Source of the DNA: Fimbriimonas ginsengisoli Gsoil 348
GTDB lineage: Bacteria > Armatimonadota > Fimbriimonadia > Fimbriimonadales > Fimbriimonadaceae
Assembly: GCF_000724625.1 (NCBI RefSeq)
Contig: NZ_CP007139.1
Span: forward strand, 2,976,001-3,040,000
Length of the DNA: 64,000 nt
Direction of reading: 5' to 3'
Shown here: piece after piece, positions 7,049 to 61,584 of the stretch
How the letters are laid out: each line of letters starts with the position of its first letter
Numbering within the stretch: the stretch's first letter is position 1
Notes under the pieces: model-generated
Database searches by the model: none
What the model was told of the DNA's origin: nothing
Seen by the model: the letters and a program-made list of their open reading frames with translations, nothing else
Position numbers and translations under genes: made by a program

Positions 7049-7101
7049 CTCCCCCGACCCGGAGGGTCGCAGATCTTAGCCAGGGTGTCGAAGACCCCTG
7101 G
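7049..7101 (-). repeat. REP copy A, inverted relative to the copy at 7409
   Basis: A 53-bp palindrome-containing sequence whose reverse complement matches 7409-7461 with one difference. It lies just 5' of the transposase remnant. The inner hairpin is GACCCGGAGGGTC-like. Together with the copy downstream it brackets the remnant. Confidence 0.8.
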
Positions 7102-7110
7102 TCTGCGGGC

Positions 7111-7362
7111 GGCTGCATATCCGATCTCGTGCGAGAGGTTAAGAAGTCTTCCACAAAGTGGATGCGAGAGGAGATGGGAATCGCCCGGTTCTCTTGGCAG
7201 GAAGGATACGCCGCCATTTCGGTAAGTCCTGAGCGGTTAAGCGGCGTTTCGAAGTATATCGAAAATCAAGCCGAACATCACCGCACCCGCTCGTTCAAAG
7301 AGGAATTGGAGGAACTCCTTAGGTTGGCCGGAATTCCTTTTGATCGGGAGTCTTTCGGCTAG
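7111..7362 (+). pseudogene. Remnant of REP-associated tyrosine transposase (RAYT, Y1/HUH, IS200-like)
   Basis: Only the C-terminal part of the family is left: about 84 codons reading from ISDLVREVKKSS through FSWQEGYAAISVS to IENQAEHHRTRSFKEEL, which matches the conserved tail of RAYT proteins. The upstream N-terminal part with the HUH metal-binding motif is missing; copy A of the repeat begins 10 bp before the similarity. A GTG at 7129 would open a 77-residue frame, but a functional protein is unlikely. The remnant is flanked by inverted REP copies, the arrangement expected for a RAYT and its cognate repeats. Confidence 0.8.
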
Positions 7363-7408
7363 AGATCTTCGACCGCCTCCGGGGTCGGAGAGGGTGGTGG
7401 CGTCTTTT

Positions 7409-7461
7409 CCAGGGGTCTTCGACACCCTGGCTAAGGTCTGCGACCCTCCGGGTCGGGGGAG
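7409..7461 (+). repeat. REP copy B, 3' of the transposase remnant
   Basis: Reverse-complement partner of 7049-7101 (52 of 53 positions by eye). A shorter related piece is at 7363-7400. With copies A and C it forms a small cluster of the same repeat around the RAYT remnant. Confidence 0.8.
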
Positions 7462-13561: not shown

Positions 13562-16500
13562 ATGAGAATCTTCCGGGCCCCCTCCTCGTCGCACCTAAAA
13601 TCTCGTCCTGGTCGAGATCTTTTCTCTGCGATGAGGAGGGGGGTGGGGGTGGAGAATTCCGGACGTAGCACTGGCCGCTCGCCAGTGGATCTCACGCCAA
13701 TGCAACTTGTGCCGATTCCGGACTCCCTCACCCCCAACCCCCTCTCCCTCCTTCGGCACTTACATCCGAAGGAGGGAGAGGGGGCTCCGGATCTTTCCGC
13801 CGTCTGCCTTCCGCCTTTTGCCTTCCGGAGAGGTGGCTCGGGAGCGCGAACTTTCTTCTTTCTCTTGGCCCTGACGCCGTTCACGATTCTCTTCGCGGAT
13901 CAAGGGACGAAGAAGACGAGTTTTAGCCGGGAGGTGGCGCCGATCCTTAAGGCGCACTGCGCCTCTTGTCACTCGGGGGCGAGCGCGGCGGCGGGGTTGG
14001 ATGTGACGAGTGGGAAGCTGCTCCTGAAGGGGCATTCGGTGGTGCCGGGGCATCCGGACACGTCGATCCTGCTGGTGCGGATCAAAGGGCTCGGCGGGAA
14101 ACCTCAAATGCCGATGGGGCTGCCGCCCCTGACCGCGGCTGACACGGCGACGATCGAAAAGTGGATCGCCGAGGGAGCTCAGCTCGATGCGCCGGTCGCG
14201 CAGCATTGGGCGTATGTCGCCCCAGTTCGCCCAAAGCTGCCACCGCTTAAGTCCGCGTGGGTCCGCAACGCGATCGATGCGTTCGTTCTTGCTCGCCAAA
14301 AGAAAGAAGGGCTCCATCCTTCGCCCGAAGCTTCGAGGGAAGTGCTGCTGAGACGGGTCTCCCTCGATCTAACAGGTTTGCCGCCGACGCCGACGGAGAT
14401 CGACGCCTTCCTGGCGGACAAGCGACCGGATGCGTACGAGCGGGTGGTCGACCGGCTACTCGCCTCGCCGCAATACGGAGAGAAGCAGGCGCGCTCTTGG
14501 CTCGATCTCGCCCGCTACGCGGACAGCAACGGGTACGAGAAAGACTTGCGCCGCACCGCTTGGCCTTATCGAGATTGGGTCATCGACGCGTTCAACCGGA
14601 ACATGCCGTACGACCAGTTCACGATCAAACAACTGGCCGGCGACCTGCTGCCGAACTCGACTCTGCAAGACAAGGTCGCTACCGGCTTTCACCGGAACAC
14701 GATGTTCAACGAAGAGGGGGGCGTGGATCAAGCCGAGGCCCACTTCGCCGTCATCACCGACCGCGTCGACACCACCGCGACCGTCTGGCTCGGATCAACC
14801 ATGGCGTGCTCGCGCTGCCACGACCACAAATACGATCCGTTCACGCAGAAGGACTACTACCGGCTGGCCGCATTCTTCACGAACACTGAGGTGTACCCGC
14901 GCGGACCGAAGTCGATCGGTGAAGAGAAGTGGTTTGAGGCGGAAACCAAGGTGCCGAGCAAAGAACAGGCGGCCGAGCAAGCCAAGCTGAACGCTTTGAT
15001 TTCAGAGAAAGAGAAGGCGCTTACCACGAGGTACGCCGGGGCGGACGCGGCTTTCGAGGCGTGGGCCGCTGCGGCTCTGACCCAGCCGACCTGGACCACC
15101 TTACGACCGACGCTCGCCATCGCTCCGCAGGGAGTGAACCTCGTGGTCCAACCCGACGAATCGATCCTCGCCACCGGCGCGAATCCGGACCGTGGCCAGT
15201 ATCACCTGGCGTTCCCGGCCTCTCCCCAGCCGATCACCGGGTTTCGCTTGGAAGCGTTGTCCGATCCATCGCTGCCGTCAAACGGTCCCGGGCGAGCCGG
15301 GAACGGGAACTTCGTCGTTAGCCGCATCCAGGTGGCGGCGGGGGACCTATCTCCTGTCGTAGCGAACGTCAAGACCGATTTTCTCCAGGCGGGACTGACA
15401 CTCGACCGGCTCAATGTCGGTGACGACACTCAAGGTTGGGCCGTCGATGGACAGATTGGGAAGCGGCACGAGATGATGTTCTCCCTCTCAAAGCCGATCC
15501 CGGCGGGAACGGCGTTCAGTGTGACGCTCGGTTTCGAATCGCGTTTCGGCACGCACACCCTGGGTCATTTCCGGTTGTCGCTTACCTCAGCGGCCGAGCC
15601 GGTAAGCGCCTACCTGCCGGACAAGATTCGCTCCCTGCTGCAGGCAGGGGCCAAGAACGACGAGCTGCGAAACTATTACCAAACGACCGCTCCCCCGCTA
15701 GCGGAGCCGCGGCTCGAACTTGCACTACTCAAGAAGAAGCAGGAGGAGCTGGAAGCCTCGGTCCCCACGGCCCTCGTGATGAAAGAAAAGCCGGCGAAGG
15801 GGCCGCTTACCTGCTTTGTTCGACACCGCGGTAGCTTCCTCGATAAGGCGGAGGAAGTAACGGCGGGCACGCCGGCCGTATTGCCGGCGCCGAAGAAGGA
15901 GCCGGCCAACCGTCTCGATCTCGCGAAATGGTTGGTCGATCCAAAGAACCCGCTTACTGCCCGGGTCGAGGTCAACCGGATCTGGGAGAGCTACTTCGGA
16001 CGCGGACTCGTGGAAACGAGCGAAGACTTCGGGACGCGAGGGACCCGGCCAACCCATCCGGAGTTGCTCGATTGGCTCGCCACCGAATTCGTCGCGAAGG
16101 GATGGGACATGAAGGCGCTCCACCGCCTCATCGTGACCTCTTCCACCTACCGACAGTCGTCGAGCGCCACCGCGGCTCTCATCGCCAAAGATCCGCAGAA
16201 CCTGCTGTTAGCGCGGGGACCGAGGTTCCGAATGGAGGCCGAGACGATTCGCGACGCCGCGCTTGCCGCGAGCGGCCTGCTCAACCTCAAGATCGGCGGG
16301 CCAAGCGTCTACCCGTACCAGCCGGAAGGGGTTTGGGATAGCCCATACAGCGGAGAGGCCTGGATGCCGAGCAAAGGAGCGGACCGCTTCCGCCGCAGCA
16401 TCTACACCTTCTGGAAACGCACTTCCACCTATCCGGCCTACATGGCGTTCGACGCCACCAGCCGCGAATCGTGTACCGTCCGCCGGATCCGCACCAACAC

Positions 16501-20494: not shown

Positions 20495-20578
20495 GTAGTG
20501 CCGGCTTTCGTGGCGCCGGCTTCCAGCCGGCAGCCCAGCCGCCGCAGGCTGCGGCGGTAACTGGGCGGCGACGCCGGT
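20495..20578. repeat. REP cluster in the GHL10/hisI divergent gap
   Basis: A GTAGTGCCGG head at 20495, then GTGGCGCCGG starting a hairpin with GCCGGCTTCCAGCCGGC (20515-20531), and a further palindrome CCGCCGCAGGCTGCGGCGG closed by CCCAG/CTGGG. It fills most of the 110-bp space between the two divergent starts, so promoters for one or both genes must overlap it. Confidence 0.7.
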
Positions 20579-28543: not shown

Positions 28544-28671
28544 GTCGGCGCTTCGCCGCCGATCCAGACAAACCCCTCTTACATCGCCTAAACGCCGATG
28601 AAAGTTAGGATCGGCGCCTCGCCGATCATCCGAACAAACCCCTCCTTGCATTGCCTAAACGCCGACGAAAG
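28544..28671. repeat. Tandem duplication of a REP-containing unit, period about 66 bp
   Basis: Units begin at 28544 (GTCGGCGCTTCGCC) and 28610 (ATCGGCGCCTCGCC), and both continue with CAAACCCCTC, GCCTAAACGCCGA and GAAAG. The units differ at scattered positions. The block lies in the divergent gap between the alpha/beta-hydrolase and RNase J genes, 60 bp before the rnj start. Confidence 0.75.
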
Positions 28672-37721: not shown

Positions 37722-37765
37722 CGCGTCCCGACTTTAGCCCATTCCCGCAAAACCAATCTCCGCAA

Positions 37766-37833
37766 GCCCCCTCTCCCTCCTCGGGATGCATGTGCCCGAC
37801 GAGGGAGAGGGGGTTGGGGGCGAGGGAGTCCGG
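37766..37833 (+). repeat. Covarying hairpin repeat, copy 2
   Basis: C-rich arm, apical stem TCGGG, loop ATGCATGTG, stem CCCGA, one C-C mismatch, then the G-rich arm and tail GGGAGTCCGG. It lies in the 178-bp divergent gap between the isomerase and GH18 genes, where promoters for both genes must also lie. Confidence 0.85.
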
Positions 37834-37899
37834 AAGAGCCGGGCTGGAGACCAGCGGTCCTTTCGGAAGGGTAAAACCCAATCGCCGACAAGGTCCGAA

Positions 37900-54885: not shown

Positions 54886-54959
54886 CTCCGGAGCCCCCTC
54901 TCCCTCCTTCGGATGTATGTGCCGAACGAGGGAGAGGGGGTTGGGGGTGAGGGAGTCCG
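54886..54959 (+). repeat. Covarying hairpin repeat, copy 3
   Basis: C-rich arm CCCCCTCTCCCTCC, apical stem TTCGG, loop ATGTATGTG, stem CCGAA, one C-C mismatch, G-rich arm, tail GGGAGTCC. It begins right after the O-methyltransferase stop, where it can act as an mRNA 3'-end hairpin. The rest of the 276-bp gap holds short TGATG-type direct repeats near 54967-55010 and the MITE copy. Confidence 0.85.
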
Positions 54960-55036
54960 AGAGCGATGGCTGATGATTGATTTGTGATGTTTGATGGTTG
55001 ATGTTTGAAGCCCTCGCTCCCAATGCGCGAAGAAAA

Positions 55037-55170
55037 GGAGCGCGAGCTTTACGGTCATTGACAAATTAGCTTTATGTTTCCCTTGCCTGATTTCACCCGT
55101 AGCCCGGGGATAAATCCCCGGGCTACGGGTGTGGATTGTCAATCTATTTTATTGGTGGCCATTAGCTCGC
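55037..55170 (-). mobile_element. MITE-like element, reduced copy in opposite orientation
   Basis: Reads on the minus strand like 1127-1298, with an internal deletion: the central part is a perfect 17-bp palindrome (CACCCGTAGCCCGGGGA and complement, 55094-55131) around TAAA. The end at 55037 has GGAGCGCGAGCTT as in the full copy; the end at 55170 is shortened and merges with the 3' end of the DoxX gene. Confidence 0.75.
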
Positions 55171-59260: not shown

Positions 59261-59334
59261 CCTCCGGAACCCCTTCTCCCTCCTCCAGATGTTTGTGCTG
59301 GACGAGGGAGAAGGGGTTGGGGATGAGGGAGTCC
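59261..59334 (+). repeat. Covarying hairpin repeat, copy 4
   Basis: Arm CCCCTTCTCCCTCC, apical stem TCCAG, loop ATGTTTGTG, stem CTGGA, G-rich arm GAGGGAGAAGGGG, tail GGGAGTCC. Besides the apical stem, an outer C-G pair in copies 2 and 3 is T-A here. Positioned between the convergent yidC and ankyrin genes. Confidence 0.85.
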
Positions 59335-59341
59335 CCCTCGT

Positions 59342-61488: not shown

Positions 61489-61490
61489 CC

Positions 61491-61584
61491 GTGGCGCCGG
61501 CTTCCAGCCGGCAGCCCAAGTTTGCCTACGAAGAGACCCGGTGCCCAATTGAAACTTGGGCTACCGGCTGGAAGCCGGTACCAC
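61491..61584. repeat. BIME-like inverted repeat, GTGG...CCAC
   Basis: Arms 61491-61523 and 61552-61584 (33 bp, 30 paired) around a 28-bp spacer; each arm holds the hairpin GCCGGCTTCCAGCCGG or close variant. It begins 2 bp after the jag stop and ends 1 bp before the stop of the convergent methyltransferase gene. Related to the REP at 20515-20531. Confidence 0.85.

Follow-up and report, generated by a model that had tools for sequence, protein, structure and literature searches.

To my knowledge, the PIT or TM-ECO repeats of Escherichia coli have been recognized since about 2000 and occur in hundreds of genomes, with no function, origin or partner gene assigned to them. They are built of a pyrimidine stem, a purine stem and a third strand that mirrors the purine stem, they carry a GGG-N-GAGGG core, and they are dispersed and intergenic (Hoyne and Maher; Holder et al. 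2015, PMC4666352). Their first loop measures 3–6 nt and their second 3 nt, they show no bias in strand or in distance to open reading frames, no mobility gene was found for TM-ECO, and no in vivo triplex footprint was seen in E. coli (PMC4666352). REPtrons, in which a RAYT gene is flanked by GTAG REPs, comprise a small gene between inverted hairpins and many solo copies, with one gene per family and with copies close behind stop codons (PMC3733652). Palindromic repeats without a known transposase also exist, the CGTC REPs (PMC3733652), to which the repeats reported here are likened by description only, not by sequence.

The repeats of Fimbriimonas ginsengisoli analyzed here have the three-strand layout, the core and the dispersed, intergenic distribution of PIT/TM-ECO. 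They differ in having a nested hairpin of 20–22 nt with an ATG-N3/4-GTG loop, a TT linker and arms of up to 13 nt, in being stop-adjacent and co-directional, and in bracketing a DUF559 gene. With REPtrons they share the small gene between inverted hairpins, the many solo copies, the one gene per family and the position behind stop codons; here, however, the gene encodes a DUF559 (Vsr/EDxHD-like) rather than a Y1/HUH protein, a third strand is present, and the ends read TCCGGA with no GTAG tag. The hairpins are probably solo, non-autonomous copies of the ends of a small mobile unit that resembles a REPtron, DUF559 replacing the RAYT transposase.

The 64-kb stretch of DNA that was analyzed (hereafter the window) had been read from its letters alone as containing four dispersed hairpins. 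All four are present, and the limits of the full element were slightly redefined (Table 1). The core GAGGGAGANGGGGTTGGGG matches the window nine times at up to 3 mismatches, against 0.11 expected, and shuffled sequences came nowhere near nine. When the Rfam covariance models were run over the window, a single tRNA reached its gathering score and the repeat matched no curated RNA family. Copy 3 is laid out as TCCGGA-G-pyrimidine arm-C-apical hairpin-C-purine arm-TT-third strand-TCCGAG and starts 1 nt past the TAA that ends an O-methyltransferase-like gene read in the same direction. Copy 1, placed by the sequence-only reading in the PSD1 frame, does lie inside that ORF, though only in a 5' extension read from a TTG codon, and is probably upstream of the true start.

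Table 1. Positions of the repeat copies and their parts in the window, and of the DUF559 genes with their flanking copies in the genome
Feature	Position	Strand	Remarks
Copy 1	13717-13791	-	stem TTCGG/CCGAA, loop ATGTAAGTG
Copy 2	37760-37834	+	stem TCGGG/CCCGA, loop ATGCATGTG
Copy 3, full element	54887-54961	+	family A
Copy 3, pyrimidine arm CCCCCTCTCCCTC	54894-54906	+	pairs with 54928-54940
Copy 3, apical hairpin TTCGG-ATGTATGTG-CCGAA	54908-54926	+	
Copy 3, loop ATG-N3/4-GTG	54913-54921	+	
Copy 3, purine arm GAGGGAGAGGGGG	54928-54940	+	
Copy 3, third strand GGGGGTGAGGGAG	54943-54955	+	preceded by TT linker; mirrors purine arm
Copy 4	59263-59337	+	begins 4 nt past yidC stop
DUF559 gene A	C1:2240922-2241206		family A copies 2240790-2240864 (+), 2241303-2241377 (-)
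DUF559 gene B	2110018-2110281		family B; right copy 2110399-2110460 (-)
DUF559 gene C	3896671-3896922		family C copies 3896577 (+), 3897054 (-), 3897169 (-)

Across the genome (one contig of 5,231,762 bases) there are about 115 copies, which fall into three families; searching with a covariance model made from 25 of the copies retrieved about 78 of family A, about 30 of a second family and a few of a third. Family A reads TCCGGA-G-CCCCCTCTCCCTC-C-TTCGG-ATGTATGTG-CCGAA-C-GAGGGAGAGGGGG-TT-GGGGGTGAGGGAG-TCCGGA, family B TCCGGAG-CCCCCTCCTC-G-TCG-ATGNNNGTG-CGA-T-GAGGAGGGGG-TT-GGGGGTGGAG-AAATCCGGA, and family C CCCTCTCCCTTC-...-ATGCATGTG-...-GAAGGGAGAGGG-CC-GGGGTGAGGGATG. The apical stem of 67 family A copies is TTCGG/CCGAA in 39, TCGGG/CCCGA in 16 and TCCAG/CTGGA in 5, rarer forms being TCCGG, TCCCG, TCGAG and a few with one change. 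That stem changes are compensated, as had been claimed from four copies, is borne out by the 333 of 335 pairs that are intact in these 67 copies and by the covariation of three pairs (T-A/C-G; C-G/G-C; G-C/A-T/C-G), whose mutual information was reached in none of 1000 permutations. Among 25 distinct rows, 99.3% of cells are paired and 26 two-sided changes occur, against 8.4 in shuffles. In the loop, ATG and GTG are almost fixed and the central three or four bases are free; the entropy of ATG/GTG is 0.11–0.37 bit, compared with up to 1.05 bit in the stem. The 67 copies were thus found to have neither stems that change without compensation nor a loop that is no more conserved than the stems.

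Conservation of the loop was followed into other genomes with the pattern C4NNC4-N8-25-CAC-N3-4-CAT, which describes the loop and the G-rich arms as read on the other strand. Matches to the pattern and to its reversed control numbered 103 and 4 in the F. ginsengisoli genome, 50 and 2 in G066, 20 and 0 in G060, 19 and 0 in both G041 and G081, 13 and 0 in G075, and 12 and 0 in G039; counts were near chance in the remaining genomes of the same genus. Since stems differ in those other genera, conservation of the ATG-N3/4-GTG loop extends further than that of the stem. An exact-pattern scan of some 85,000 species genomes for an ATG-loop variant gave five chance matches with no third strand; that pattern, being narrow (family A geometry), missed genera with other stems, such as the broader one found.

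The hairpin is not the whole of the element. The purine stretch directly 3' of it mirrors the purine arm, with G opposite G and with A or T opposite A. Judged from its letters, the element is laid out like the PIT/TM-ECO repeats of E. coli, as an intrastrand triplex of the purine motif; a DNA hairpin of three strands could form from each copy, and I infer that it may do so in the cell. A shared tail noted earlier, GGGAGTCC, is indeed present, but it is only a piece of this 13-nt mirror strand. The replacement of an outer C-G pair by T-A in copy 4 was confirmed, and the purine strand that follows the hairpin changes along with it, from G to A: copy 4 has T59274 in the pyrimidine arm, A59312 in the purine arm and A59323 in the third strand, where the consensus has C, G and G. 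The third strand also changes with the stem between families (GAGGGAGAGGGGG/GGGGGTGAGGGAG, GAGGAGGGGG/GGGGGTGGAG and GAAGGGAGAGGG/GGGTGAGGGATG) and in other genera (GAGGAAGGGG/GGGGATGGAG, GGGGGAAGGG/GGGATGGGGG and GAGGGAGGGG/GGGGAGGGAG). When 292 hairpins were defined without reference to a third strand, about half of them being read on the wrong strand, a third-strand fit of at least 90% was found for 38% of own pairs, compared with 8% when families were swapped. The letters opposite A in the third strand were A 151 times, T 113 times, G 7 times and C twice, a count that leans towards the triplex model because it was taken on pairs with at least 75% fit. This three-way covariation is natural evidence of bacteria conserving sequences with a triplex design. 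The selection on a folded form that had been proposed from the stem changes holds in so far as the fold is kept (the stems covary and the loop is constant, in 67 copies and across genera), while the two-stranded hairpin that it pictured, as either RNA or single-stranded DNA, is incomplete.

Could the covariation arise without the fold being under selection? Compensated changes can be made by gene conversion or when imperfect palindromes are corrected from a template, and some of those seen here could stem from such repair. The stem variants do change as blocks (TTCGG, TCGGG, TCCAG), and in one family A copy (G000:C1:26491-26565, locus L001) the apical hairpin stands inverted between its arms, which gives the impression that these have recombined. 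Such correction, however, cannot template a mirror-symmetric third strand and leaves the constancy of the loop between genera unexplained, so that as a full account of the covariation it is unlikely. It is somewhat less probable still that conservation of the purine stretch reflects a G-quadruplex instead of a triplex. Most families do have four G tracts (e.g., GGG-AGA-GGGGG-TT-GGGGG-TGA-GGG), but the mirror symmetry reaches past them to the outer GAG, the pyrimidine arm is always kept, and A is nearly never faced by C (2 of 273), which the loops of a quadruplex would not require.

The placement of the elements relative to genes was then determined, genes being called with a codon-usage caller trained on the window and not taken from curated annotation. 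Of 100 placeable copies, 59 have their start no more than 15 nt from the gene upstream, where an even spread of copies within their own gaps would give 18, and 56 of the 59 directly follow a co-directional stop codon. At the 3' end of the element, just 9 copies lie as close to a gene. The position of copies 3 and 4 directly behind stop codons, which the sequence-only reading had remarked on, is thus no coincidence but a genome-wide rule. Stop adjacency recurs in the relatives G060, G066, G039 and G041 and is absent in G081, G074, G075 and G013; in all of these relatives the gene context is less reliable, loci being few and GC-rich sequence prone to over-calling. No clear pattern of replication-strand bias emerged, GC skew being noisy in the genome pieces examined.

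Such positions suit an RNA element, transcribed right at the beginning of the preceding gene's 3' UTR, that acts as a terminator or stabilizes mRNA 3' ends, perhaps with the help of a protein binding to the AUG-N3/4-GUG loop. Where the upstream neighbor is co-directional, 56 of 71 copies start within 15 nt of its stop, compared with 3 of 29 where it is antiparallel, and the predicted fold is very stable (z -3 to -5.5). Nevertheless, a U tract is lacking, the gene ahead of the element is on the opposite strand for about 30 of 100 copies, an RNA hairpin would have no obvious need of a mirror third strand with A or T on A, purine-motif triplexes are weak in RNA, and the inverted copies around DUF559 genes (see below) would be left unexplained. 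Classical REPs, too, lie less than 20 bp behind stop codons (PMC3733652), and a passage of PMC4666352 that cites earlier work describes PIT elements as having neither promoter nor terminator activity in E. coli. An RNA element is therefore an improbable reading.

The two flanks of the element differ: the right flank is covered by repeats in 77 of 116 cases, where the element abuts other dispersed REP-type repeats, in contrast to 5 of 116 for the left flank, which is unique. A common target sequence at the flanks, as had been suggested for inspection, was not found; neither a target-site duplication nor a consensus is seen 5' of TCCGGA beyond a weak CC. The REP-type repeats on the right (e.g., window 37835-37880) often come after TCCGG duplications, giving composite, BIME-like 3' cassettes. 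The window also holds a longer repeat in inverted orientation, CACCCGTAGCCCGGGGATTTATCCCCGG... (1132-1286 and 55050-55170, one copy about 100 nt behind copy 3), and a REP-like repeat, GTGGCGCCGGCTTCCAGCCGGCAGCCCA, in three copies with one pair inverted (20509-20537, 61490-61584). A candidate CRISPR-like pair at 28570-28671 was rejected, as it consists of two imperfect repeats flanking a REP.

DUF559 is a widespread protein family of unknown function. A small gene of this family was first sighted between two inverted elements in two other genera. A whole-genome search then gave exactly three DUF559 genes in F. ginsengisoli, each lying between inverted copies of its own family (Table 1), the left copy of the family B unit having an insert of about 40 nt in its loop. 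With about 115 elements in 5.23 Mb, I estimate that chance would very rarely place elements around even a single gene (less than 1 in 10,000 per gene). The start of each of the three units is at most about 20 nt away from a sense stop codon, and units A and C have the motif GAGGTAGGTTTTGC just inside the right end (L024:1966-1979, L159:1657-1670). What had been read as selection on a hairpin is, given the third mirror strand and the inverted copies around DUF559 genes, better read as the structured ends of a mobile unit.

To quantify the association, a YRR element was defined as a pyrimidine arm together with a mirror 8 nt or more in length, and loci were taken as the best PF04480 matches, whether or not repeats were nearby. 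Of 53 DUF559 loci, in four phyla, 31 have a YRR element at a distance of up to 300 bp: 12 of 22 from Fimbriimonadales, 11 of 17 from the rest of Armatimonadota, and 8 of 14 in a plasmid-borne sample (Cyanobacteria, Deinococcus, Sphingomonas, Sinorhizobium, Azospirillum, Photobacterium). The density of such elements is 1.35–1.74 per kb near DUF559, compared with 0–0.33 per kb far from it. The other 22 loci have no YRR element as defined, although several are flanked by hairpins that are degenerate or richer in A/T. When 20 more DUF559 loci were sampled, 14 had elements, mostly inverted pairs. An exclusive tie of ATG-loop elements to one DUF559 clade (96/85 support) was dropped, because in the prospective 20 loci the same protein type (RxPSLDLF) occurs with other loops. 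Some of the genes are within operons (sufB-DUF559-sufC, paaD-DUF559-paaZ), and at L380 and L391 a DUF559 with E-x-D-S for E-x-D-G accompanies ATG-loop hairpins of another stem type with no clear third strand.

Y1-transposase loci of the same bacterial family served as a matched control and had a YRR element within 300 bp in 0 of 36 cases (Fisher p 6e-10 against DUF559); elements on both sides were found at 20 of 53 DUF559 and 0 of 36 Y1 loci (p 1e-5). This result bears on whether the repeats are REP-like elements mobilized by RAYT (Y1/HUH) transposases, for which the genome offers 13 RAYT-like matches and the REP-type repeats that abut the 3' ends. The neighboring REPs, however, are separate families, the elements have no GTAG tag, and none was near any Y1 gene examined. 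Mobilization by RAYT is highly improbable and was rejected. A TIR-flanked RAYT-like remnant does occur in the window at 7049-7461, where inverted repeats of 53 nt (98% complementary) surround a Y1_Tnp fragment of 107 codons.

The three bracketed proteins score 86, 85.8 and 89.4 bits against PF04480 (cut-off 20.6). Eleven residues are invariant in 32 aligned DUF559 members: E25, W29, R43, Q44, D53, F54, E64, D66, G67, H70 and R80. The closest match of the predicted structure of DUF559-A (pLDDT 88) is the endonuclease-like protein 3hrl, which sequence comparison found as well, and AbaSI/PvuRts1I, the EDxHD homing endonuclease I-Bth0305I and Vsr match as well. By predicted fold and catalytic residues, DUF559 qualifies as a putative nuclease of the Vsr/EDxHD type whose nuclease residues are intact. 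It shares with I-Bth0305I and Vsr the predicted fold and the acidic/His active-site residues but differs from them in being a stand-alone domain of about 130 aa, linked to dispersed hairpins and not to an intron or to mismatch repair. In Caulobacter, the DUF559 protein VsrA is needed for the SOS/DNA-damage response in a methylase mutant (PMC12907096), which indicates that DUF559 proteins can act on DNA in cells. The methylase concerned has a CCGG core in its site (PMC12907096); that the element ends, TCCGGA, contain the same core is no more than a coincidence of possible interest.

The proposed mobile unit would consist of a TCCGGA-Y/R hairpin with its third purine strand, a DUF559 gene and an inverted element, about 0.55–0.65 kb in all, sitting just behind the stop codon of a gene. 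The proposal is based on the observed family structure, stem/third-strand covariation, placement, one-to-one bracketing, cross-phyla association and intact nuclease residues. Once single-stranded during replication, repair or uptake, the element would fold into a hairpin, and the purine third strand would lie back on the stem as a purine-motif triplex, presenting the ATG-N3/4-GTG loop. I infer that DUF559 may bind, cut or mobilize the element: the family-matched protein would recognize the hairpin through the loop and the mismatch below the apical stem and would nick at or near the TCCGGA ends, upon which the unit or a solo element would be copied into new places. Sites behind stop codons would be favored through targeting or tolerance, and such a position would give the DUF559 gene read-through transcription. 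If true, REP-like systems would have a second type of enzyme, and Vsr-like nucleases would acquire a role in mobile elements.

In E. coli K-12, a PIT/TM-ECO repeat lies 168 bp from the 3' end of ycjD, itself a DUF559 gene whose region is present in 3362 of 5426 E. coli genomes. A wider reading, which I put forward tentatively and consider quite possible, is that DUF559 nucleases of many phyla form a new class of mobile elements, mobilizing units with triplex-hairpin ends, each DUF559 recognizing its own loops and stems, and that the PIT/TM-ECO repeats are solo copies of the YcjD lineage. A 25-year-old puzzle of E. coli 'triplex' repeats thereby gains a candidate enzyme, and PIT/TM-ECO and DUF559 come to share one testable hypothesis. 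No report joining DUF559 or YcjD with repeats was found in the open-access literature, subscription journals being outside this scope, so novelty is provisional. In the ycjD-less E. coli strains examined, the fabI side has no YRR element but has a different operon and so offers no clean empty site. At one site orthologous between the congeners G060 and G061, the only such difference seen, the element is present in the former and absent in the latter; about 80 nt replace 29 nt, which is no clean insertion and leaves no target duplication to be read. Finally, loci L262 (G081) and L293 (G074), from genomes assigned to different genera, share 3.1 kb at 99.5% identity, which points to recent transfer or contamination.
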